Shown: positions 49,216-60,486 of the stretch, piece after piece | Position numbering within the stretch: the first letter of the stretch is position 1 | Layout: each line of letters starts with the position of its first letter | Assembly: GCA_026196275.1 (NCBI GenBank) | Contig: JAPHTQ010000061.1 | Location: forward strand, 1 to 64,000 | Origin: Gammaproteobacteria bacterium | Lineage (GTDB): Bacteria; Pseudomonadota; Gammaproteobacteria; Thiohalomonadales; Thiohalomonadaceae | Direction of reading: 5' to 3' | Length of the DNA: 64,000 nucleotides | The notes under the pieces: model-generated | What the model was told of the DNA's origin: nothing | Database searches by the model: none | Seen by the model: the letters and a program-made list of their open reading frames with translations, nothing else | Program-made: the position numbers and the translations under genes

Positions 49216-49606
49216 AGGCGCAGTAGTGAGTGGGCCTTGCACATCGCCTGATGAGGTTGGTGGACTGTACCAGTTGTACCCGCGAGCTTCCTGACGATGC
49301 CGGGCTGACGTGGCCTCGACAGTCGCTGCGGGGGCTGGCGCATGATCGCCACCTGCGCGCCTGCATCCGTGCGGCGATCCGTCCACGGCCAGCCTTCTTT
49401 CCTGCCCGATCCAACTATCCACAACGTCTGCACACCCCATACCACCTCTTTCCTGTAGAGATCCGTAGCGGCGCCCGAACCAGTCTTCCTGAACGGATTG
49501 CATTTTTCTATTTGCCCGGCCTGGCTGAGTGCTGATTTGCATAATTCTCTTCCAGCTCTCGCTGCACAAATCCCTATCCACCTGTTTATATTGAAATTTT
49601 AATGAT
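49216..49606. other. Gene-free region upstream of the sulfur/selenium cluster
   Basis: About 390 nt without a recognisable gene. Short frames on both strands (for example 49230-49535 plus, 49203-49445 minus) have no family similarity and poor ribosome-binding sites. The last 90 nt are AT-rich compared with the surroundings. A weak GATTTG (49534-49539) / CAAATC (49568-49573) inverted repeat lies 35-70 nt upstream of the sigma-54 site and could be activator-binding DNA. Confidence 0.5.
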
Positions 49607-49622
49607 GGCATGATGTGTGCTT
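49607..49622 (+). promoter_or_regulatory. Sigma-54 (-24/-12) promoter for the TusA-YeeE block
   Basis: TGGCATGATGTGTGCT matches the sigma-54 consensus TGGCACG-N4-TTGCW at 10 of 12 defined positions, with GG and GC separated by exactly 10 nt. It lies 33 nt before the first start codon. It closely resembles the site at 55604-55619. Confidence 0.7.
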
Positions 49623-49654
49623 TATGGGATATAGAGGCGCTTTGAGGATCGAAT

Positions 49655-50008
49655 ATGTTCCTGAGACATATTTTTGGCAATAAAGACACCACCCCGACCA
49701 GGAAACGCCAGCGCGTTTGCACCGAGGTGACTGAGCAACGGGAGCTGCCAGGCTTTGGCACGGTAGCAGTACGCTGTCGGGTCTCCTGTGTCGGTGAGGG
49801 ATGTCCCAAGCCACAGCTGATGACCCTCAAGGCACTGGATGAGAATCAGGACGGAGATATTATCGAGGTGGTCACTGACAACCTCTCCGCCGTCGAGACC
49901 ATCCCCTCGATGATGGATATCTACGGTGGACAGCACATGGCCACTGTGCGCGAAGAAGATTGCTGGCGAATCTATGTGCGCAGGGAAAACGAGAACCGGA
50001 CCAGGTAA
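49655..50008 (+). CDS. TusA-like sulfur-carrier protein with N-terminal extension
   Basis: A 117-residue protein. The C-terminal 70 residues match the TusA fold, with the active-site C50-P-K-P motif in GCPKPQLMTLKAL and the strands GDIIEVVTDNLSAVETIPSMM and CWRIYVRRE. TusA proteins carry persulfide (or selenium) sulfur on this cysteine. Unusually, 49 residues precede the motif, with three extra cysteines (C22, C41, C45) that could form a second redox or metal site. It is the first gene after a sigma-54 site and 28 nt upstream of the YeeE transporter. A ribosome-binding site GAGGAT is weak but present. Confidence 0.75.
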   Translation: MFLRHIFGNKDTTPTRKRQRVCTEVTEQRELPGFGTVAVRCRVSCVGEGCPKPQLMTLKALDENQDGDIIEVVTDNLSAVETIPSMMDIYGGQHMATVREEDCWRIYVRRENENRTR

Positions 50009-50036
50009 CGCTAACTGTATTGAGGATAAGAAAAAG

Positions 50037-51491
50037 ATGAGTTCGAATGCTACGCACTCCACTGCCGCCGCCCCGCAGCGCTCATTGCTGGCGCACCGAG
50101 GCGGCTACACAGCGATCGGCATCAGCACACTGGTGGCGCTGTTTTCAGTCATCATGCTGATGATGGACACGCGCTGGGTTTATCTGCTGGTCTATGTCTG
50201 GTTCGGTGTGGCTTATGGCGTCTTTCTGCAATATGGCCGTTTCTGCATGGCCTCGGCGGTGCGTGATCTGTTTGCGGTGAAAGTGCCGCGTATGGCGGTG
50301 GGGGTGATGATTGCCACGGCGCTCTTCTCACTCACGGCGGGGATCGTCACCGTCTCCGGCTACAGCACTTTCCATCCCCACCCGCTGGGCTGGCACATCA
50401 TTATCGGTGGCCTGATCTTCGGTTTCGGCATGGTCTTTACCGGTGGCTGCGCCTCCGGTTCGCTCTACAAGAGCGGTGAGGGCAACGTCGGCTCGATGCT
50501 GGTGCTGGTCAGTATCTCCTTCTCCCAGGCACTGTTTGCCGACCTCGGCAGCTGGTCCAACAAGCTTGCCCCGGCAAGCTGGGCGGCGTCGGCCGCGGAG
50601 AAGGGGATGCCGGAAGAGCTGTCGGTGACCGACGGCTGGTTCGACCAGTTTATGGCCGGTTACATCTGGGATCTCTCTGGCGGCACCGTCGGCCAGTGGA
50701 TGGAGAGCGGTAATGTCTGGATTGATGTCTTCATCGGCAATGCCCTGCTGGGGGCCATTCTGCCGACCATCGTGCTCCTCTGCATTCTCTATATGGCTAC
50801 CTACCGCAAGGGCTATGTCCGCCGCAACAAGCTGGAGAGCCCCTCCATGGGTGATGAGCTGCGCGGTTTCTGGGCCATGATGACCTCTTCCAAGAACACC
50901 GCGCTGGCCGGCCTGGGGCTGGGCGTCTTTGCCGGCCTGCAGATGTGGGTCACCGGCGCGCTGCGCGAGCACTATCAAATCTTCAACTTCGGTGAGCTGC
51001 TGAGCAAGATGGGGCATACCGACGGTCTTTCCATACAGCAAACCGTATTCGATCCCGGCTATTGGTACATCACCACCCAGGAGGCACAGCTGGGTGGCTG
51101 GATCATGGACAAGATGGGCCGTGATGTGATGGATAACGTCTTTTTCGGACTGAATAATGGCATCCCCAATCCCTTTATCAATGCCCCCTTGCTGATGTCA
51201 GTCGGCATTATTCTCGGTGCTGCCGTACTGGCGCTCACCCGTCGTGAGTTCAAGTGGAAAATGCCCAGCCTGGAGACCGCCATTTTCGCTCTGGTCGGTG
51301 GTGCGTTGATGGGGATCGGCGCCCGTCTCGGTATGGGTTGCAACGTCGGTGCCTTCTTCGCCGCGGTGACCAACGGCGACCTGACCGGCTGGATCTTCCT
51401 CGCCGGCATGACCCTGGGCGGGCTGCTCGGTGTTAAGGCCTTTAATCTGTGGCTGGAGAGAAAAAGCATCGGTGACGAATTCGATATCTGA
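50037..51491 (+). CDS. YeeE/YedE-family (TsuA-like) sulfur-compound transporter
   Basis: A 484-residue inner-membrane protein with about ten helices. Family members import thiosulfate (TsuA), and YedE members are linked to selenium metabolism. The three family cysteine motifs are present: GRFCMASA (C70), GMVFTGGCASGSLYKSGEG (C138) and ARLGMGCNVGAFF (C435), which relay the substrate by S-S-H contacts in the known thiosulfate channel. A long central loop (about residues 180-290) is an insertion. The ATG at 50037 was chosen because the upstream open stretch overlaps the TusA-like gene. A TusA gene follows 55 nt downstream. Confidence 0.9.
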   Translation: MSSNATHSTAAAPQRSLLAHRGGYTAIGISTLVALFSVIMLMMDTRWVYLLVYVWFGVAYGVFLQYGRFCMASAVRDLFAVKVPRMAVGVMIATALFSLTAGIVTVSGYSTFHPHPLGWHIIIGGLIFGFGMVFTGGCASGSLYKSGEGNVGSMLVLVSISFSQALFADLGSWSNKLAPASWAASAAEKGMPEELSVTDGWFDQFMAGYIWDLSGGTVGQWMESGNVWIDVFIGNALLGAILPTIVLLCILYMATYRKGYVRRNKLESPSMGDELRGFWAMMTSSKNTALAGLGLGVFAGLQMWVTGALREHYQIFNFGELLSKMGHTDGLSIQQTVFDPGYWYITTQEAQLGGWIMDKMGRDVMDNVFFGLNNGIPNPFINAPLLMSVGIILGAAVLALTRREFKWKMPSLETAIFALVGGALMGIGARLGMGCNVGAFFAAVTNGDLTGWIFLAGMTLGGLLGVKAFNLWLERKSIGDEFDI

Positions 51492-51546
51492 CCGGGTACG
51501 ACAGACTATTCAACCTAATCTAACAATACATTCTCAGGAGTAAACG

Positions 51547-51798
51547 ATGGCGATCAAGTTCGACAAAATTGGTGACGGCGAGTACGAGCTGGATGTAAAG
51601 GGCTACACCTGCCCACACCCGCAGATGTACACCAAGAAGGCGCTGCAGAAATTGAGCGGTGGTGATGTGTTGAACCTTATCTTCGACAACCCCTCATCCG
51701 GCGAGTCCATCATGGCTATGGTCGAGGGCGAGGGTAACGAGATCATCGAGAAGCAGGACGGTGACGGCTCATTCATCTGGAAGATTCGCAAGGGGTAA
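51547..51798 (+). CDS. TusA-family sulfurtransferase
   Basis: An 83-residue protein with the active-site C22-P-H-P motif in GYTCPHPQMYTKKALQKLSGGDVLNLIFDNPSSGESI, followed by the usual strands to the C-terminus. It is the compact TusA form found beside YeeE/YedE (TsuB/YedF-like), probably accepting sulfur or selenium delivered by the transporter. A CAGGAG ribosome-binding site precedes it, and the DsrE-like gene starts two bases after its stop. Confidence 0.9.
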   Translation: MAIKFDKIGDGEYELDVKGYTCPHPQMYTKKALQKLSGGDVLNLIFDNPSSGESIMAMVEGEGNEIIEKQDGDGSFIWKIRKG

Positions 51799-51800
51799 GC

Positions 51801-52109
51801 ATGAGGTTCGGAATTGTGGTGACAGATGAAAACCAGGCGGCCCATGTCTCCGGCCTGCTCAAGGAGGCGTTGTCACGCGACTGGAGCGTGCGCTGCTTTC
51901 TTACCGAGAACGGTGTAAATATGCTCAAAGACGATGCCTTTATCGATATGGCCAGAAACCCGTCCGTGCATCTTTCGGTGTGCGAAATGTCGGTGGAGCG
52001 TTACTGCCACGACATGCCGCTGTCCGAGATGGAGGATGCGGTGATCATCGGTGGCCAGTACCAGGACGCCGAGTTGGTCCGCAATAGTGACCGTGTACTG
52101 GTTTTTTAA
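51801..52109 (+). CDS. DsrE-like protein
   Basis: A 102-residue protein of the DsrE/TusD fold: FGIVVTDENQAAHVSGLLKEAL, then WSVRCFLTENGVNMLKDDAFIDMARNPSVHLSVCEMSVERY, typical of the family. Three cysteines (C32, C61, C69) are candidates for the persulfide site. It directly follows TusA (two-base gap), and two further small genes follow it, so the block has the order tusA-dsrE-like-(F)-(H), a condensed version of the dsrEFH/tusBCD sulfur relay. Cytoplasmic. Confidence 0.75.
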   Translation: MRFGIVVTDENQAAHVSGLLKEALSRDWSVRCFLTENGVNMLKDDAFIDMARNPSVHLSVCEMSVERYCHDMPLSEMEDAVIIGGQYQDAELVRNSDRVLVF

Positions 52110-52121
52110 GAGGTTAGGAAC

Positions 52122-52382
52122 GTGAGTGACGAGACAAAGAGTGTACTGATGGTGGCCCGCAATAAAAAAGTTGAGGCTCTGCGTATGGCTACTGGCCTGA
52201 CGTTGCTCGATGATGTGATTCGGGTGGCGGTAATGGGCGATCTCGATCGGACCGATCCGGATGTGGAGCTGCAGCTGGAGTCACTCGATTTTGCCGATGT
52301 ACCAGTGGTTGATGTGGACCCGGACAGGGCGGCCGAGTTTGCCGAGATGATAGTTAATTCAGATGTGGTGTATGTGGTATGA
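52122..52382 (+). CDS. Short DsrF/TusC-like protein without cysteine
   Basis: An 86-residue protein starting with GTG. The pattern KSVLMVARNKKVEALRMATGLTLLDDVIRVAVMGDL resembles the first half of DsrE/F-fold proteins, which contain a Rossmann-like strand-helix-strand. It has no cysteine at all, so it cannot itself carry a persulfide; a structural or partner role is likely if the family guess is right. It overlaps the next gene by ATGA. Confidence 0.55.
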   Translation: MSDETKSVLMVARNKKVEALRMATGLTLLDDVIRVAVMGDLDRTDPDVELQLESLDFADVPVVDVDPDRAAEFAEMIVNSDVVYVV

Positions 52383-52573
52383 GTGAGAAAAGAGTGCATC
52401 TCTATGTGGTCGGTGCGGGTGATGCGGAGTTGCAGTCGCTGATCGAAAAAGGGTTGTCGGAGCTGGACCGCGCTGTTGCGACAACCCCGGTCGGAGCAGA
52501 TTGCGCTGCCCTGCTTGATACGCTGTCCGAGGATGAAATACCCGTGGTGATCAAACCGTATAACGCCGTGTAA
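52379..52573 (+). CDS. 64-residue DsrH/TusB-like protein
   Basis: Starts with ATG overlapping the previous stop (ATGA), so it is translationally coupled. It has the pattern HLYVVGAGDAELQSLIEKGLSELDRAVATTPVGADCAALLDTL and one cysteine (C42). Its position as the third of three small genes after TusA and the single central cysteine suggest a DsrH/TusB-type partner, though it is shorter than those (about 95 residues). The assignment rests on context more than sequence. Confidence 0.5.
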   Translation: MSEKRVHLYVVGAGDAELQSLIEKGLSELDRAVATTPVGADCAALLDTLSEDEIPVVIKPYNAV

Positions 52574-52621
52574 TCCCGTTCAAAAAGGCGGGCGGCAGGG
52601 CGCAGTTGAACGATGTTGGAG

Positions 52622-52637
52622 TGGCTGTGCAGGTGCT
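52622..52637 (+). promoter_or_regulatory. Weak sigma-54-like site before the rhodanese lipoprotein
   Basis: TGGCTGTGCAGGTGCT has GG and GC separated by 10 nt and matches 8 of 12 defined sigma-54 positions; it shares the GTGCT end with the two better sites. It lies 60 nt before the start of the 52697 gene. Confidence 0.3.
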
Positions 52638-52696
52638 GTTGGGGTGGGTGGTGAGTAATACGCCTCAGCAACAAAATAAAACGTAGGAGGAGAGTT

Positions 52697-54151
52697 ATGA
52701 AAATAGCAAACGAAAAGAGCAGGTCCAGAGGCTATCTGGTCGGTCTGCTGGGGGCGACAGCGCTGGTGCTGGCCGGCTGTAACGGATCTGAAGACAGTAG
52801 TGTCGGTGTGGCTGACGATACCGTGACGTTGCCGACGATGAACAGCCCGGCGACCATCGCCACGGAGTCTGCCGCTGATTACAATGACAACATCCATGGC
52901 CTGGTCACCGGCGACACACTTGCAAACTGGATTACTGATTGGGATGCCAACAAACCTGCCGGTATCGACGGCAAGCTGGTGATTCTGCAGACCAGTACGG
53001 GTGAGGCCGGTTCTGAGTATATCGCCCCTAATGGTGTCGATGTGTTTACCTATGAGACGAGCGAGTTCGTTGAAACTCGTTCTAACGGGGTGATTGAAAC
53101 AAGATCCATGGTCCCAAGCGGCCAAACGATGGATAACTTCCTGTCTAAGTACAATATCGATCCTGGCAAGGATATGATCGTTTGCGCCCAGGGTAGTGCT
53201 GGTGGTTATAGTGCTATGAAAGCTGGCCGCTGTTGGTATATGTTCCGCTACTGGGGGGTGCCGGCAGGCCGACTCGCCATGCTCAATGGCGGCAATGAGT
53301 GGAATGACACTAACACAGCGCTGGCGTTTACCACTACTGCTTCCACGCCGCCGATGACGGGTTATGCCTCAGTCAAGGATCTGCCGCAGATCAACTTTGC
53401 CCTGCAGGCGACTCTGGAGGATATGCTCGATGCGGTACCTGACAGCGACACCAATGTGACGGATGACGGGGTGTTCATCTGGGATGCCCGCGGCAACAAT
53501 CTTCCCGCCAGTTTGCCTGGTAGTAGCAGTGACGAGTACAGTCCTGACGGAGATAGCGATTTCCGCAATGGAGGCGCTACACAAGGCCATCCCAACGGTG
53601 CCTTGCTGCTTTCCTATAGCAATCTGCTCGATAGCTCTGAGGGGTACACCTTCAAGTCGAAGGCTGATCTTGCCGCTTATCTGGATGGTGAAACCGTTGA
53701 TGGTGCCTACTTCGTCGATGGCACGCTGCAGGGCATAGGTGTTGGCAATGCTTACCAGAGTGGTGACACAATCTATACCTACTGTGAAACCACTTACCGT
53801 GCCATGGTTACCGGTTTTGCCACCGCGGCGATTCTCGGTAAGCCGACACGGTTCTATGATGGTGCTATGGTTGAATGGCACTCCATGGCCAATGCCTATG
53901 ACAAAAATGGTGATCAGCTTCTACCGGCCGATTCGCCCTGGCGTACCGACAAAAACAGCGTCAGTATGTACCGCGTGGCCGGTGATTCAGCCAATGTAGA
54001 TCCGCGCACTATCGTTGATGCGGATGCAAATACGGCCCACCAGATCATCATTGATGATCTTGCCTATAAAGGCATCATAGTAGAAACCGATAGTGATGAT
54101 GGTGGTAGCAGTGGCGGCGGCGGAGAAATCCCTAATCCTTGTGGTGGCTGA
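52697..54151 (+). CDS. Tandem-rhodanese lipoprotein (ExtH-like)
   Basis: A 484-residue lipoprotein: signal peptide with lipobox L25-A-G-C28 (GATALVLAGC), then two rhodanese-like domains (about 70-210 and 215-440). Each domain has a cysteine at the catalytic position: C163 in IVCAQGSAGGYSA and C363 in YTYCETTYRAM. In most tandem rhodaneses only the second domain is active, so this is notable. The C-terminus is Asp/Gly/Ser-rich with a terminal cysteine (PNPCGG). In Geobacter, a rhodanese-like lipoprotein (ExtH) belongs to the selenite/tellurite-linked extHIJKL locus with porin and cytochromes, the same neighbours as here. A GGAGGAG ribosome-binding site precedes the ATG, and a terminator follows. 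Confidence 0.8.
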   Translation: MKIANEKSRSRGYLVGLLGATALVLAGCNGSEDSSVGVADDTVTLPTMNSPATIATESAADYNDNIHGLVTGDTLANWITDWDANKPAGIDGKLVILQTSTGEAGSEYIAPNGVDVFTYETSEFVETRSNGVIETRSMVPSGQTMDNFLSKYNIDPGKDMIVCAQGSAGGYSAMKAGRCWYMFRYWGVPAGRLAMLNGGNEWNDTNTALAFTTTASTPPMTGYASVKDLPQINFALQATLEDMLDAVPDSDTNVTDDGVFIWDARGNNLPASLPGSSSDEYSPDGDSDFRNGGATQGHPNGALLLSYSNLLDSSEGYTFKSKADLAAYLDGETVDGAYFVDGTLQGIGVGNAYQSGDTIYTYCETTYRAMVTGFATAAILGKPTRFYDGAMVEWHSMANAYDKNGDQLLPADSPWRTDKNSVSMYRVAGDSANVDPRTIVDADANTAHQIIIDDLAYKGIIVETDSDDGGSSGGGGEIPNPCGG

Positions 54152-54179
54152 TTTTCGCTGGTAAATCCACTCACAGACA

Positions 54180-54204
54180 GGGCAGCCTTAGGGCTGCCCT
54201 TTTT
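54180..54204 (+). terminator. Terminator after the rhodanese lipoprotein gene
   Basis: GGGCAGCC, loop TTAG, GGCTGCCC, followed by a T-run (CTTTTTCT), 28 nt after the stop codon. It separates the rhodanese gene from the cytochrome gene that follows. Confidence 0.9.
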
Positions 54205-54226
54205 CTGGATATAATAGTCAGTGTTT

Positions 54227-54265
54227 CTGCCTAACGATGCTGTTTAAATATGTGTGGTTAGGCAG
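54227..54265. promoter_or_regulatory. Perfect 9-bp inverted repeat upstream of the pentahaem cytochrome gene
   Basis: CTGCCTAAC (54227-54235) and GTTAGGCAG (54257-54265) with a 21-nt AT-rich spacer, 35 nt before the cytochrome start. It has no T-run, so it is more likely an operator than a terminator. TATAAT lies at 54209-54215 just upstream, in the ATATAATAG context, and could be a -10 box. Confidence 0.45.
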
Positions 54266-54299
54266 TGGCATTGCAGGTAATTGATTGGAGCGGAACAAC

Positions 54300-55517
54300 G
54301 TGAGATTAAAAGTGGCTGCTATTTTGATTTTTCTGGTCATGGGATTGGCGCTCTTATACTCCTGTTCCGTACCGGAAACCGAAACTGTGGATGATTTCCT
54401 CTCGGGGTACTGGGTGTACCCGATGCAACCCCAGGGTACCCCACCAGAAAATTACACCCATCTGGAGGCCTCACTGGCTCCTGACTCCTGCGCCCAGTGC
54501 CATACCGAGCAGCACAAGCAGTGGCGTGAGAGTCTGCACAGCCACACCATGGGGCCGGGGATCCGCTGGCAGCTGCAGCTGATGAAACCCGAACCCTCCC
54601 GCGCCTGCCTCAAGTGCCATGCGCCGCTGACCGAGCAGTTTGCCCTGTTGGCCCAGGAGCAGGGATGGACGCAAGCCAGAGCCGCCCCCCCCGATTATCT
54701 TCCGGGCGATCTCCATCGCAAGGGACTCGCCTGCGCCGCCTGCCATGTTCGGCAACACCAGCGATTCGGCCCGTCTGCCGGCCCCAATGCCCTGGAGGGG
54801 ACGGCCCATGGCGGCTTCGTTGCTCACGAGGCGTTCAGCGACAGTCGCTTCTGTGCCAATTGTCACCAGTTTGCGGAGGACGGCCCACGCCTTAACGACA
54901 AATTGCGCGAGGATACCTATAACCAGTGGCAGCAGAGCCGTTATGCCGCCGAGGGGAAGGGATGCCAGTCCTGCCATATGCCGGACCGCCGCCATGAATG
55001 GAAGGGGATCCACGACCCGGCGATGACCCGTTCGGCATTCACCGTCACTCTGAGCCGTTCGACGGCGGACGATGGTCGTCTTCTTGCCAGTGCAGAGGTG
55101 GCCAATAGCGGCGCCGGTCACCACCTTCCCACTTATATGGTGCCGGAGTTGCTATTGCGGCTGGAGCATGTAGCGCCCTCGGGCAGGGTCAGCGAGCTGG
55201 CACGTCACATACTTGCCTGGCGTCCCAACCTGGCGCTGACCGAGGAGCGGTTCGACCAGCGGCTTCCCGCAGGGGAGAGTGTGCACCTGACGGGGGAACT
55301 GGAGGCCAGTAGTGAGCCGGATGGTTCACTGCGCCTGCGAGTGAGTGTAGCACCCAAGTATCAGTATCTTGTCACCTTCGTCGACTACTTGGAGAGAAAC
55401 CGCCACAGGCTGGAACCCAAGACGCTAGGCCTGTTGGAGCTGGCTATCCAGGAGGCACGCAGTGCCGAGTACGAGTTTATTGCGGCGGAAGAGATGCTGG
55501 AAACCATTGCAAATTGA
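54300..55517 (+). CDS. Pentahaem c-type cytochrome, probable lipoprotein (ExtK/ExtL-type neighbour)
   Basis: A 405-residue protein with a signal peptide ending LLYSC (C22), consistent with a lipoprotein. Five CxxCH haem sites are visible: CAQCH (64-68), CLKCH (103-107), CAACH (145-149), CANCH (185-189) and CQSCH (222-226). The haem-free C-terminal part (about 240-400) is beta-rich (SAFTVTLSRSTADDGRLLASAEVANSGAGHHLPTYMVPELLLRLEHV). The overall pattern is like cytochrome c554-type proteins used in extracellular or periplasmic electron transfer. The GTG at 54300 follows GGAG; the open frame begins at 54285. It probably shuttles electrons between the inner membrane or periplasm and the porin complex. 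Confidence 0.85.
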   Translation: MRLKVAAILIFLVMGLALLYSCSVPETETVDDFLSGYWVYPMQPQGTPPENYTHLEASLAPDSCAQCHTEQHKQWRESLHSHTMGPGIRWQLQLMKPEPSRACLKCHAPLTEQFALLAQEQGWTQARAAPPDYLPGDLHRKGLACAACHVRQHQRFGPSAGPNALEGTAHGGFVAHEAFSDSRFCANCHQFAEDGPRLNDKLREDTYNQWQQSRYAAEGKGCQSCHMPDRRHEWKGIHDPAMTRSAFTVTLSRSTADDGRLLASAEVANSGAGHHLPTYMVPELLLRLEHVAPSGRVSELARHILAWRPNLALTEERFDQRLPAGESVHLTGELEASSEPDGSLRLRVSVAPKYQYLVTFVDYLERNRHRLEPKTLGLLELAIQEARSAEYEFIAAEEMLETIAN

Positions 55518-55603
55518 AGTCTGACAACAGCGCTGCCGGGCCATGCAACCCGATATATTGTTGGGTCATGATTAAGTTGCTGAATTTAAATGAGTTATAT
55601 TTT

Positions 55604-55619
55604 TGGCACGGGATGTGCT
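55604..55619 (+). promoter_or_regulatory. Sigma-54 (-24/-12) promoter for the small-protein/cytochrome/porin block
   Basis: TGGCACGGGATGTGCT matches TGGCACG-N4-TTGCW at 11 of 12 defined positions with the correct 10-nt GG-GC spacing, 46 nt before the start of the 80-residue secreted protein. The gap 55518-55664 contains no gene; a GATATATTG-centred imperfect inverted repeat (AACCC/GGGT) about 50 nt upstream might serve as an activator site. Confidence 0.8.
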
Positions 55620-55664: not shown

Positions 55665-55907
55665 ATGCGAAATCTTGTCGTCATAGCGCTACTCCTTGGG
55701 GGAGTGGCACTCACTACGGCTCAGGCGGAGGGCGCCGGTGCAAAGCGCTTGAAGTTCAAGCAGGGACCGGTCTGTATGTGTAGCAAGGGCTTGAGTGAAA
55801 AAGATATTCGTGAAGCGGAGAAGGCCCGCGAACAGTTGTCCGGTCAAGGCGGTTTGAACAAGTTAAGGCAAAATGAAGAGCAGCCAAAAGGCAGAGAGGA
55901 GGAGTGA
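55665..55907 (+). CDS. Small secreted Cys-x-Cys protein (ExtJ-like position)
   Basis: An 80-residue protein with a cleavable signal peptide (cleavage after A19-Q-A21). The mature part has a C37-M-C39 motif in QGPVCMCSKGLSEKD followed by a charged, probably helical stretch (EADKAREQLSGQGGLNKLRQNEEQPKGREEE). The mature protein is only about 59 residues. The family is not recognised with certainty; small proteins occupy a similar position in Geobacter ext loci (ExtJ). It is the first gene after the best sigma-54 site, and its stop overlaps the next gene. Confidence 0.7.
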   Translation: MRNLVVIALLLGGVALTTAQAEGAGAKRLKFKQGPVCMCSKGLSEKDIREAEKAREQLSGQGGLNKLRQNEEQPKGREEE

Positions 55908-56398
55908 TGAGTAAAACTGATAAGAAAGGCCGGGTGAAAAGGCGTTCACATCGTGGCGTCTGGCTGTCACTGCTGGTGGTGCCGGTGGTGATGGCCGGCT
56001 GGGTGGTCTACGCCAGTTACGTGATCACCAACGGTATCCCCGGTGGTGAGGATGGCAGCTGGAGTTCCGAGGTGTTGGCCGATATTCACGAGGGGATCAT
56101 TACGACCTCCCCCGTACCTCTGGCCAATGCCTGCGGTCTGGGGGCATCGTCCTGCTTTAAGTGTCACAACGGTAAACGGGCAGAGGAGCCCGGTCCGCAG
56201 AAATGGCACGCCGAGCATGAGAAGGTTAACCACTCCTGTGCCGGTTGCCATAACGGTAATGAGCGTTTGATGGTCAAGGGGATGGCGCACAAGGATTTGA
56301 TCGGCGATCCGCGCATGAAGCCGCAGGAGACCTGCATGAGTTGCCACAAGGATGATGATCCGAAGGCGCTGCTTGATCAATACACAAGTATCGAATAA
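55907..56398 (+). CDS. Membrane-anchored trihaem c-type cytochrome
   Basis: A 163-residue protein with a basic N-terminus and one uncleaved membrane helix (about 17-40, VWLSLLVVPVVMAGWVVYAS), then a periplasmic part with three CxxCH haem sites: CFKCH (83-87), CAGCH (111-115) and CMSCH (143-147). The GTG at 55904 and ATG at 55907 are both possible; the ATG follows GAGGAG at a good spacing. It overlaps the previous stop (TGATG). It could bridge the quinone pool or another cytochrome to the periplasmic and outer-membrane components encoded around it. Confidence 0.85.
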   Translation: MSKTDKKGRVKRRSHRGVWLSLLVVPVVMAGWVVYASYVITNGIPGGEDGSWSSEVLADIHEGIITTSPVPLANACGLGASSCFKCHNGKRAEEPGPQKWHAEHEKVNHSCAGCHNGNERLMVKGMAHKDLIGDPRMKPQETCMSCHKDDDPKALLDQYTSIE

Positions 56399-56414: not shown

Positions 56415-57572
56415 ATGAAAAAGAATCCAACTTTACGCTATACCGGCCTGAGCGCGCTTGCGCTGGCCATCTCCAGCATGGGTGCCCATGCCGGTCCCTC
56501 CTTTCAGGTGGGTGACCAGGGCTACATGGAGCTGAGCTACGCGGTGCAGATCTGGGCGCAAAACCGGGGTTACACTTCGAGTACTGATAATGGGGATATG
56601 ACTGATACCTTCCTGCGTCGCAACCGTATTACCCTGAATGGCCAGTATAACGACTATATCGGTTTCTATGCCCAGCTTGAGGCCGGCAACGACAGCAAGG
56701 GGGGCGAAGACGACCGCTCCGTCTACTACCGCGATGCCTATCTGACCCTGGACTACCGCGATGAGCTGCGGTTTATTCTCGGGCGCTACAAGAATACCTT
56801 CAGTCGTGAGAATCTGGAGGCCTGTCTGGAGCCACTCACTCTGGACCGTAGCACAATGTCCTATACCCCGTTTGGCGGCAGTCGCGACACCGGCGCGACG
56901 GTCTGGGGCAACCTGGCCGACGCCATGTTCCAGTATCGTCTATCAGTGAGTGACGGCCGTGAAGCTGACGAGGTGGTCAAAGACTCGCCGCGCATCACCG
57001 GCAGGGTGCATGTCAGCCTGTTCGAGCCGGAGTATTCCTACGGCTACCGCGGTACCTATCTCGGCACCCAGAAGGTACTGACCATCGGTGCGGCGTTCGA
57101 TAGCCAGAGTGATGTTGCCTACGATAACTACGGCGCGCGTGATGGTACCAGGGATTATGATGCAACTACCTACGATATCTTCTACGAGCAGCCATTCTCC
57201 TTTGGCACCCTTACCGCCTCGGCAGCAGCATTTGATTACAGTGTCGATGGTTACCCTGTTGACCCCGATCCTGCACTCACACCGTGGGTTGAGCGTGAAG
57301 GGAATTATGTGAAAGTGGGTTACCTCTTTCCCAAACCTGTCGGCATGGGACGCTTGCAGCTCTTTGCTCGTGGCGACGATGTTGAATATGGTGAAGGAAC
57401 CGGCCTTTCAGATACCAGCATGACTTCGTTTGGTGCTAACTACTACATCAACGGCCAGTCGCTCAAAGTCACTCTTGAGCACGCCAGCATGGAGTTCGAT
57501 GAACAGCATCCGACTAATCCGGCACTGCAGGATTATGATCAGACAACGCTGGGTCTACAGGTGATCTTCTGA
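56415..57572 (+). CDS. Outer-membrane porin (ExtI-like)
   Basis: A 385-residue protein with a signal peptide cleaved after A24-H-A26. The mature protein is an extended beta-barrel pattern with alternating hydrophobic/polar strands and aromatic girdles (YMELSYAVQIWAQNRGY, NYVKVGYLFPKP), ending in the C-terminal phenylalanine (GLQVIF) required for BAM insertion. It resembles phosphate-selective/O-P family porins and the ExtI porin of Geobacter ext loci. In Geobacter sulfurreducens, ExtI is needed for selenite and tellurite reduction. The upstream open stretch from 56352 lies inside the cytochrome gene, so the ATG at 56415 was used. Confidence 0.82.
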   Translation: MKKNPTLRYTGLSALALAISSMGAHAGPSFQVGDQGYMELSYAVQIWAQNRGYTSSTDNGDMTDTFLRRNRITLNGQYNDYIGFYAQLEAGNDSKGGEDDRSVYYRDAYLTLDYRDELRFILGRYKNTFSRENLEACLEPLTLDRSTMSYTPFGGSRDTGATVWGNLADAMFQYRLSVSDGREADEVVKDSPRITGRVHVSLFEPEYSYGYRGTYLGTQKVLTIGAAFDSQSDVAYDNYGARDGTRDYDATTYDIFYEQPFSFGTLTASAAAFDYSVDGYPVDPDPALTPWVEREGNYVKVGYLFPKPVGMGRLQLFARGDDVEYGEGTGLSDTSMTSFGANYYINGQSLKVTLEHASMEFDEQHPTNPALQDYDQTTLGLQVIF

Positions 57573-57662: not shown

Positions 57663-59093
57663 ATGATTCGAATGCAATCTTTCTGTGACTCTCTGTTGAG
57701 AGCATTCCTCCTTATGGCCGTTTGCGTCCCTGTCGCAACGGTCATCTTTTTTGTGCTATCGGAAACGCATGTGCCAACTGGCGTGATTCTCCTGCAACTG
57801 TTCAGCGCGCTGACCCTGCTGGGTATGGCCGCCTTTTATTTTATGCAGCGACGAACGCTGGGACGTCTGCACGAGGCCATTCTCGATGCCCAGGAGGGTA
57901 CCTTGTCCAATGTCGCTAGCAGCAGTGGCTGTGACAAAAGGGTGAATAGCATCGTGGATGACTACAACACGATGATGAATAATCTCAGTGCCATGTTCTC
58001 GACCGTGGAAGAGTGCCAGAACCGTGTGGTCAATGAGCGCAACAAGATGGATGCGCTGCTCGGAAGCATGCCTGGTGCGCTGATATCCGTTGATGACTAT
58101 CTGAATATTACGAATATCAATCCGTTGGCAGCGGAGCTGTTCGATTGCGATGCTGACTGGTTGCTCGGCAAGATGTTTTTCGATGTTGTCGAACTTGAGC
58201 CCAACGACCGTGACGCACTGCGCGATGCCTTCCTCTATAAGCAGGAAGTCAAGAACTTTGTGATTCACACCCATATCAATGAGTCGCTTCACTATATCTC
58301 CATCAATATCGCCTTCTACTCGAAGCACGAGGCAGATCTCGATGCGGTTATTACCCTTCAGGATATTACTGATTATCAGCGTCTTCTTGACTCGGTGTAC
58401 AACCGTGAAAAGCTGGTCGCCATGGGGCAAATGGCGGCGGGTATAGCTCATGAGCTCAATACCCCGCTGGGAAACATTCTCGGCTACTCACAGCTGCTGT
58501 GTGAACCGTCAGTGGCGGATGAGAAGAAGACGCGTTATTCAGGCTTTGTTGCTGATGAGGCGCGACGCTGTTCACGCATTGTCAATGACCTGCTCAACTA
58601 TGCACGCCGCGATAGCTGTAGCGATGAGTTGTGTGATGTTAATGCGCTTGTGCGTGATATGATCGATACCTTCCTTACCTGTCGTCTTAAGCGTCAGGAT
58701 GTTGAGATACATCTTGAACTGCAGCCCGATTTGCCGACCGTGGATATACCCTGTGGCGAACTTGATATCGTGCTGTCCAACCTGTTGCTCAATGCACTGC
58801 ATGAGCTTGAAGGGAAAAGTGATGGTGTCGTTCGCATAACCTCCCGTCACGTCGGTAAGAAGAGCCTGGAAATAGCCATTGAAGATAACGGCGGTGGCAT
58901 CCCGGCTGAGTCAAGGAGAAAGATATTTGAACCCTTTTACACTACCAAGGAGACGGGCGAGGGAACGGGGCTGGGGTTGTCGATCAGTCAGGCGATGATG
59001 AGCAGAAGAGGCGGGGCGCTGAGTCTGGACGCAAAGTATACCGAAGGGGCACGCTTTGTGATCTTTTTGCGGGGAGTGGTAGAAAATGAGTAG
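57663..59093 (+). CDS. PAS-domain sensor histidine kinase
   Basis: A 476-residue kinase. Two membrane helices (about 10-31 and 37-60) leave little periplasmic sequence, so the signal is probably sensed in the membrane or the cytoplasm. A HAMP-like linker is followed by a PAS domain (about 128-235) and the HisKA box with H263 in GIAHELNTPLGNILGYSQLL. The ATP-binding domain has N box SNLLLNALHE, G1 IEDNGGG, F box EPFYTTK and G2 GTGLGLS. It overlaps the response regulator by 8 nt. The gap 57573-57662 shows a TGCCGG/CCGGCA hairpin only. Confidence 0.93.
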   Translation: MIRMQSFCDSLLRAFLLMAVCVPVATVIFFVLSETHVPTGVILLQLFSALTLLGMAAFYFMQRRTLGRLHEAILDAQEGTLSNVASSSGCDKRVNSIVDDYNTMMNNLSAMFSTVEECQNRVVNERNKMDALLGSMPGALISVDDYLNITNINPLAAELFDCDADWLLGKMFFDVVELEPNDRDALRDAFLYKQEVKNFVIHTHINESLHYISINIAFYSKHEADLDAVITLQDITDYQRLLDSVYNREKLVAMGQMAAGIAHELNTPLGNILGYSQLLCEPSVADEKKTRYSGFVADEARRCSRIVNDLLNYARRDSCSDELCDVNALVRDMIDTFLTCRLKRQDVEIHLELQPDLPTVDIPCGELDIVLSNLLLNALHELEGKSDGVVRITSRHVGKKSLEIAIEDNGGGIPAESRRKIFEPFYTTKETGEGTGLGLSISQAMMSRRGGALSLDAKYTEGARFVIFLRGVVENE

Positions 59094-60486
59094 TAGTGGG
59101 ACAGGGGATGCATCGGCTGAACCTGACAATAACATGAAGATTATCATTGCCGAAGATGATGAGCGGATGCAGGAACTGGTCGCAACGATCATCGATGAGC
59201 TGGATGCGGACGTCATCTCATCGGAAAGTTCGCAGCATGCACTGGATCTGATCGAGTCGATGGCCAACGTTGCGGTCGTTATTACCGATCTGAAGATGCC
59301 TTTTGTCGATGGGGTCGATGTGCTGCGCTTTGCCCGCAAGGTCAACCCGCGAACACAGGTGGTGATGATTACCGGTCATGGCACCGTGGAGTCGGCGGTC
59401 GAGGCCCTGAAGCTGGGCGCCTTCGATTATATCAGAAAGCCCTTTGACAACGCCGAGCTTTATCATACGGTCAGTCGTGCTTTGGAGCACTATCGTCTGG
59501 CGATGGAGAATGACCAGCTCCGTGCTTCTGGCGAGGAGGGACAAAACCATCAACTGCTGTTTGGAAAAACGGCCGCCATGTCACAGGTGGAAGCCCTTAC
59601 CGAGGCCGCCGCTGCCTACGATTGCAATGTGCTTGTTGCCGGCGAGAGCGGTTCGGGCAAGGAGTTGATCGCGCGTCGCATTCATACCCTGAGCAGTCGC
59701 AGCAAGGAGGCATTTGTTGCGATCAACTGTGCGGCGATCCCGGAGAACATCATCGAGAGCGAGCTCTTTGGTTATGTAAAGGGCGCCTTTACCGGTGCAG
59801 ACCGTAACAAGGAGGGACTGTTTTCGCGTGCCAACGGCGGCACGCTCTTTCTTGACGAGATCAACAACGCCTCGCTCTCCCTGCAGGCCAAGTTACTGCG
59901 GGTGCTACAGGATCGGAGTTTTTACGCCCTTGGCGATACCGAGCCTAAGAGCGTCGATGTGCGCGTTATAGCAGCGTCAAACAGAAGTCTGCAGAAGATG
60001 ATTGAAACGGGCGAGTTTCGCCAGGATCTTTTCTACAGGCTGAAGGTTATCGATATTGATTTGCCACCTCTACGAGAACGGCGTCAGGATATTCCGCTTT
60101 TGGCCAATTTCTTTCTCAGCCGCCACGCGCTCAAGCTGGGCAAGAACGTAACGGGTATGTCGACCAGAGTCCTGGGTGCACTTATGCGCCATGACTGGCC
60201 GGGTAATATTCGTGAGTTGGAGAATGTGGTTTTGCGAATGGCGATTATGACCTCAGGGAAAAAAATTGATGAGGATGTGTTGCCATCCGAATTTGCTACT
60301 GAGGAGGGTGCCAGCACCACTGCACTTGACTTTATTTCACCACAAAGCCTTGAGGAGGTTGAAGCGTACTTCATCAGGAAAACCCTGCGTGAGCAGGGCG
60401 GGGATCGGGCTCTGACGGCAGAGATCCTGGGTATCGATAAATCCACGCTCTGGCGCAAGATGAAGCGCTATCAAATTTCAGAATGA
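59086..60486 (+). CDS. Sigma-54-dependent response regulator (NtrC family)
   Basis: A 466-residue regulator. Receiver domain with acidic pocket AEDDE and phospho-acceptor D68 (TDLKMPF), conserved T and K (RKPFD). The AAA+ domain has Walker A G186-ESGSGKE193, the sigma-54-contacting GAFTGA at 233-238, Walker B GGTLFLDEIN and RLKVIDIDLPPLRER. A C-terminal Fis-type HTH follows (DRALTAEILGIDKSTLWRKMKRYQ). All residues needed for sigma-54 activation are intact, so it should activate -24/-12 promoters such as those at 49607 and 55604. The start overlaps the kinase gene; M17 (59134) is a possible alternative. Confidence 0.95.
   Translation: MSSSGTGDASAEPDNNMKIIIAEDDERMQELVATIIDELDADVISSESSQHALDLIESMANVAVVITDLKMPFVDGVDVLRFARKVNPRTQVVMITGHGTVESAVEALKLGAFDYIRKPFDNAELYHTVSRALEHYRLAMENDQLRASGEEGQNHQLLFGKTAAMSQVEALTEAAAAYDCNVLVAGESGSGKELIARRIHTLSSRSKEAFVAINCAAIPENIIESELFGYVKGAFTGADRNKEGLFSRANGGTLFLDEINNASLSLQAKLLRVLQDRSFYALGDTEPKSVDVRVIAASNRSLQKMIETGEFRQDLFYRLKVIDIDLPPLRERRQDIPLLANFFLSRHALKLGKNVTGMSTRVLGALMRHDWPGNIRELENVVLRMAIMTSGKKIDEDVLPSEFATEEGASTTALDFISPQSLEEVEAYFIRKTLREQGGDRALTAEILGIDKSTLWRKMKRYQISE

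Follow-up and report, generated by a model that had tools for sequence, protein, structure and literature searches.

Organization of the sulfur-carrier and cytochrome–porin cluster

The DNA analyzed here is a 64,000-nt stretch of contig JAPHTQ010000061.1 (hereafter the window) from a gammaproteobacterium of the family Thiohalomonadaceae. It carries a gene cluster in which a sulfur-carrier block and a cytochrome–porin block are each preceded by a predicted sigma-54 promoter, termed P1 and P2, and which ends with the genes for a sensor kinase and a response regulator. All features described below lie on the forward strand. P1 (TGGCATGATGTGTGCT) occupies positions 49606–49621 and P2 (TGGCACGGGATGTGCT) positions 55604–55619. 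Block 1 opens with the gene for a TusA-domain protein of 117 amino acids that bears an extra N-terminal part (49655–50008; Pfam TusA, 2.3e-13), and continues with a YedE-like sulfur transport membrane protein of 484 residues (50037–51491; Pfam Sulf_transp, 2.3e-48), which has orthologs in 8 of the 19 other genomes of the family, and an 83-residue TusA sulfur carrier containing a CPxP motif (51547–51798; Pfam TusA, 5.2e-18). Next comes a DsrE/F-fold protein of 102 residues with an invariant Cys61 (51801–52109), the predicted fold of which matches the DsrE/DsrF-like structure 3mc3 (E 1.5e-5, probability 1.00). The following small alpha/beta protein, 86 residues long and devoid of conserved cysteines (52122–52382), yielded a confident structure model that had no fold match in the PDB at E ≤ 0.001; an assignment as DsrE-like had no support from the fold search and was set aside. 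A PDB sequence search with two small proteins of the cluster also returned no match. A 64-residue conserved protein (52379–52573), which has orthologs only in the related loci L047–L049, and a 484-residue ExtH-like rhodanese-type lipoprotein (52697–54151) complete the block. An intrinsic terminator-like hairpin at 54179–54200, composed of a 9-pair stem and a T run, closes block 1 and splits it after the extH-like gene from the gene for a five-heme cytochrome c lipoprotein (approximately 54303–55517), which is weakly ExtKL-like and ends in IAN-stop.

Block 2 starts downstream of P2 with the gene for an 80-residue exported protein containing a CMC motif (55665–55907), followed by a three-heme, membrane-anchored cytochrome c (55907–56398; Pfam Cytochrome_C7, 1.1e-5, with three CXXCH motifs) and an outer-membrane porin (56415–57572; Pfam Porin_O_P, 1.8e-9). 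The sensor histidine kinase (57663–59093) shows PAS, HisKA, and HATPase domain profiles. The gene that overlaps its 3′ end encodes an NtrC-family response regulator (59086–60486) made up of a receiver, an AAA+ domain with the GAFTGA motif, and a Fis-type helix-turn-helix (Pfam 83.7, 230, and 46.8 bits, respectively). An initial sequence-only reading of the window had placed a GAFTGA-containing regulator 3.5 kb beyond the second promoter and, indeed, the gene starts 3.47 kb after P2.

Two predicted sigma-54 promoters and their conservation

The same reading proposed that two near-identical sigma-54 promoters serve the two blocks. Its position for P2 was exact, while its start for P1, 49607, was off by one. 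The resemblance that it described is present, with 12 of 16 bases identical, the GG-N10-GC spacing kept in both, and TT directly after each. Both sites also lie within the claimed 30–50 nt of the first genes, as 33 nt separate the end of P1 from the ATG at 49655 and 45 nt separate the end of P2 from the ATG at 55665. P1 and P2 fit the sigma-54 consensus in their TGGC-like −24 and TGC-like −12 elements as well as in their spacing, and transcription from them is predicted to start at about 49632 and 55630, respectively. Promoters of this class need an ATP-driven activator. RpoN itself is encoded by a single gene in the genome (one Sigma54_DBD match, 232 bits).

When the ∼128,000 positions of the window were scored with a generic sigma-54 matrix, the weights of which were approximate, P1 and P2 ranked first and second. 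This matrix ranking covered the window, and the 2.54-Mb genome was covered by pattern searches. A strict pattern, TGGCAYGNNNTGTGCTTT, matched the genome twice, at P1 and P2 only, and its reversed control not at all, while a looser pattern, TGGCAYRNNNNNTGCW, gave 19 matches compared with 8 for the control. Shuffled windows contained on average 0.45 matches of P1/P2-level score per 64 kb, so that one such site alone could be luck; two chance sites, both located just upstream of a gene block, are unlikely. The mutual likeness of P1 and P2, however, was rejected as evidence of co-regulation, because the identity between the two promoters averages 11.3/16 within one genome and 10.8/16 between different genomes, which is no more than the shared consensus provides.

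Comparison with orthologous clusters from eight other genomes of the family shows that P1 is at the same place in all eight and P2 in six. A wider scan, limited to one genome per species, collected 80 loci, mostly from beta- and gammaproteobacteria, including Thiohalomonas, Thiohalobacter, Thiogranum, Thiobacillus, Burkholderiaceae, Gallionella, and unnamed metagenome-assembled genomes. Among the 44 regulator-bearing loci assessed for P1, the promoter scores at least 13 in 39 and at least 11 in 40, and P2 scores at least 11 in 39 of 42 such loci. Only 2 of 190 control regions, taken upstream of yedE, the porin gene, and the five-heme cytochrome gene, reach a score of 13. The binomial figures for the related loci, which are not independent draws, are to be taken only as far from chance.

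Paired upstream elements and the linked kinase–regulator pair

Alignment of the upstream regions revealed what is, on the sequence evidence, the real link between P1 and P2, and one that the sequence-only reading had missed: shared ATTGCA elements that occur as a pair upstream of each promoter. With the T of TGG in the −24 element as the reference point, these pairs are near-fixed in position, at −108/−69 for P1, −97/−60 for P2, and −120/−83 for P3, a promoter located before the extH-like gene in relatives. In the window, the putative activator sites of P1 are site a (ATTGCATTTTTC, 49497–49508), with TTGCA at −108, and site b (ATTTGCATAATTC, 49535–49547), with TTGCA at −69. Those of P2 are site a (ATTGCAAATTGAA, 55506–55518), with TTGCA at −97, and site b (ATGCAAC, 55543–55549), with TGCAA at −60, an inverted core. 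ATTGCA is present in all 19 promoters first examined, which were from the same family, and in shuffles no hexamer occurred in more than 10 of the 19. In the wider beta- and gammaproteobacterial set, after removal of promoters more than 80% alike, P1 site a was found at −108 ± 2 in 30 of 37 promoters, site b in 32, and both in 28; P2 site a, P2 site b, and likewise the complete P2 pair were each found in 36 of 38, relative to an element background of 1.6% per 12-nt window. A composite search pattern made up of site, site, and promoter matched the genome at three places, P1 and P2 among them, and the regulon therefore seems, from this search, to be confined to this cluster.

P2 site a overlaps the stop region of the five-heme cytochrome gene. 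In the frame of that gene it is ATT GCA AAT (or AAG, AAA) and then the stop in 26 of 36 loci, where the cytochrome consequently ends in Ile-Ala-Asn (or Lys). The remaining 10 loci have the cytochrome stop at another place or in a different frame and nevertheless retain the DNA element. Thus, it is the DNA and not the protein tail that is conserved at this position. The third sigma-54 site, which lies before the extH-like gene and likewise has an ATTGCA pair, is found in L050–L052, L097, L101, L103, and L107, which represent several genera (one genus within the family), and is missing in this window, where the candidate at 52622 (TGGCTGTGCAGGTGCT) was rejected with a score of 5.4 and no ATTGCA pair.

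The linked regulator follows the cluster closely. An ortholog (56–76% identity) is encoded in exactly the 9 of 20 family genomes that have the cluster and in none of the 11 others, and the next-best full-length matches do not exceed 45% identity; the orthologs form a group of their own that goes with this cluster. Two loci, L146 and L162, have their blocks reordered as divergent operons, and a sigma-54 site with ATTGCA elements still precedes each block; the regulator gene, too, remains in the cluster even where the blocks are rearranged. The kinase–regulator pair, the first TusA-domain gene, the dsrE-like genes, and a strong sigma-54 site are all missing from the cluster variants of Cellvibrio, Solimonas, and Hydrocarboniphaga. 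In loci from these and similar bacteria (L130, L131, L136, L140, L141, L143, and L145), the extH-like, cytochrome, porin, yedE, and tusA genes follow a different order, and dsrE-like genes, kinase, regulator, and strong sigma-54 sites are absent. The kinase harbors six cysteines, at positions 118, 303, 319, 324, 340, and 364, each of which is kept in 38–40 of 39–40 orthologs, and all of which are absent from six other kinases (position 118 being comparable in only one of the six). These residues hint that the kinase may sense redox state, sulfane sulfur, or a metal.

The sequence-only reading had assigned the sulfur-carrier and cytochrome–porin blocks to one two-component system. That proposal is strongly supported because the paired ATTGCA sites are conserved and shared by the two promoters, P1 is kept in 39 of 44 loci, and the regulator ortholog co-occurs with the cluster and its sites. 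One sensor system, as these patterns indicate, very probably turns on both halves of the cluster, and we consider it highly likely that P1 and P2 are sigma-54 promoters opened together by the linked kinase–regulator pair through the ATTGCA sites. In the mechanism that we infer, RNA polymerase with RpoN would wait at each −24/−12 element until the kinase phosphorylates the adjacent response regulator, which would then bind the two ATTGCA sites upstream of each promoter, form an ATPase oligomer, and open P1 and P2 together. P1 would drive the TusA–YedE–TusA–DsrE–ExtH-like block, and P2 the genes for the small exported protein, three-heme cytochrome, and porin as well as the kinase–regulator genes themselves, the last of which would constitute positive feedback. 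The signal is probably reduced sulfur or a redox cue that would be read via the six conserved kinase cysteines.

Several observations weigh against this mechanism. A strong sigma-54-activation domain is present in nine of the proteins that the genome encodes, so that another activator could bind. The model leaves the promoter of the five-heme cytochrome gene unexplained, as this gene is cut off between the terminator and P2 and lacks a dedicated sigma-54 site. P2 is missing in a Thiohalomonas pair (L053/L054) and P1 is weak in four loci of the Thiohalobacter/Thiogranum type; moreover, the P1 site pair is shifted by ∼22 bp in three Burkholderiales-type loci and site a is degenerate in four Burkholderiaceae loci. 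Finally, the chance figures overstate independence, because the loci share ancestry.

The first of these points bears on the alternative that survives best, in which P1 and P2 are real and share their sites, but the main binder is one of the other activators of the genome and the linked pair controls something else. Binding by the linked regulator is itself a prediction, which leaves this alternative some room. The ortholog's presence in nine of nine cluster genomes and none of the others, the retention of its gene in the cluster despite block rearrangement, and the essential absence of the composite pattern elsewhere in the genome argue the other way, and we regard such a division of labor as improbable. 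The pairs might instead be bound by a separate factor, either a repressor or an architectural protein, with sigma-54 activation proceeding via other, unseen sites. Outside the TTGCAA core the sites have only weak overall dyad symmetry, and the P2 site b is inverted relative to that of P1, which would fit such a factor; yet sites ∼37–40 bp apart and 60–110 bp upstream of the −24 element are in the usual place for activator sites, and their conservation follows the regulator, making this explanation quite improbable and less plausible than binding by another activator. That both motifs are chance matches, as the commonness of the GG-N10-GC core alone and the rate of equal scores in shuffled windows might suggest, is in effect refuted by the comparative data, as dozens of loci keep the sites in the same position ahead of the same genes even though the flanking sequence diverges, and it can be dismissed.

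Comparison with known sulfur and electron-transfer systems

The regulator shares its receiver, GAFTGA-containing AAA+ domain, and Fis-type helix-turn-helix with regulators of the NtrC, ZraR, and AtoC type, but falls below the curated NCBIfam cut-off for every family listed. The downstream part of the cluster recalls extHIJKLMNOPQS of Geobacter sulfurreducens, which functions in selenite and tellurite reduction and is reported to be Fur-regulated (PMC5877670). An ExtH-like rhodanese lipoprotein, multiheme cytochromes, and a porin of the phosphate-selective type are common to both, while the Geobacter cluster has further cytochromes of its own, a cytochrome b, and Rieske proteins. The proteins encoded here score below the corresponding family cut-offs, with 127.7 bits relative to 200 for NCBIfam ExtH and 43.6 bits relative to 250 for ExtKL.

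Block 1 resembles the YTD cluster (yedE, tusA, dsrE, and genes for conserved hypothetical proteins, CHPs), which has been proposed to mark sulfur disproportionation (PMC12998232, PMC9751629). In both, YedE-like, TusA, and DsrE-fold proteins are encoded in one block, and the YedE protein is ∼52–55% identical to its Nitrospirota homologs. Block 1 encodes small conserved proteins, too, which would be at most putative counterparts of the published CHP1–3 of YTD. In contrast to YTD, the present block is led by an extra TusA-domain gene and joined to genes for an ExtH-like rhodanese, cytochromes, a porin, and the kinase–regulator pair. It also differs in its hosts, which are beta- and gammaproteobacteria, where a role in disproportionation would be putative. 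In one YTD study, the analysis of which contained no Pseudomonadota genomes, the occurrence of the DsrE and CHP parts is reported as limited to three other phyla (PMC12998232). Blocks of YedE, TusA, and DsrE-fold genes (49655–52382 in the window and L085–L146) are common in beta- and gammaproteobacteria. The YTD block is among the leading candidates for a marker of sulfur disproportionation by microbes, a process with an open mechanism (PMC12998232), and the open-licence literature searched describes no sigma-54 control of a YTD or ext cluster and no YTD regulator. The predicted activator, DNA sites, and cysteine-rich sensor would provide a way to ask which sulfur compound induces the module, would tie cytoplasmic sulfur carriers to an outer-membrane cytochrome–porin set as one regulated unit, and would supply a site-pair motif with which the regulon could be found in other genomes.

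The closest regulatory counterpart is TspS/TspR of Acidithiobacillus caldus, a sigma-54-dependent two-component system that activates the sox-II sulfur-oxidation genes from the upstream activator sequence TGTCCCAAATGGGACA (PMC6335251). The two systems are alike in being sigma-54 two-component switches of sulfur genes that act, or are predicted to act, from an upstream activator sequence. They differ in that the present cluster has ATTGCA(A) pairs and that its targets are the YedE/TusA/DsrE and cytochrome–porin genes, not sox. A TspR-type sequence (TGTCCC-N4-GGGACA, or the dyad TGTCC-N6-GGACA) was sought upstream of P1 and P2 and was not found, the best candidates having 7/10 (P1) and 6/10 (P2) core letters. 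A dyad of that type is found in Nitrospirota, where 50 of 296 genomes encode a close YedE homolog. Among the 30 such loci read, 12 (L165, L166, L169–L174, L177, L180, L181, and L189) have a strong sigma-54 site (14.3–19.7) at the start of yedE, and all 12 have an upstream TGTCC-N6-GGACA dyad that misses no more than one of its 10 core letters and is perfect in eight. This dyad resembles the site of TspR, which the ATTGCA pairs of Pseudomonadota do not, and the comparison suggests recruitment of two distinct sigma-54 activators to the YTD-type module in different phyla.

A broader proposal can be put forward tentatively, as a real possibility that we hold to be somewhat short of probable. Under it, the YTD-type module and its outer-membrane cytochrome–porin partner in beta- and gammaproteobacteria would have as their master switch a dedicated sigma-54 two-component system, the six-cysteine kinase of which responds to redox state or sulfane sulfur, and the Nitrospirota module would independently be under a different, TspR-like activator. 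Control by sigma-54 would then characterize this unexplained sulfur pathway in general. Set beside TspS/TspR, the type of system is one already known, and the present cluster is a new, well-defined member of it.

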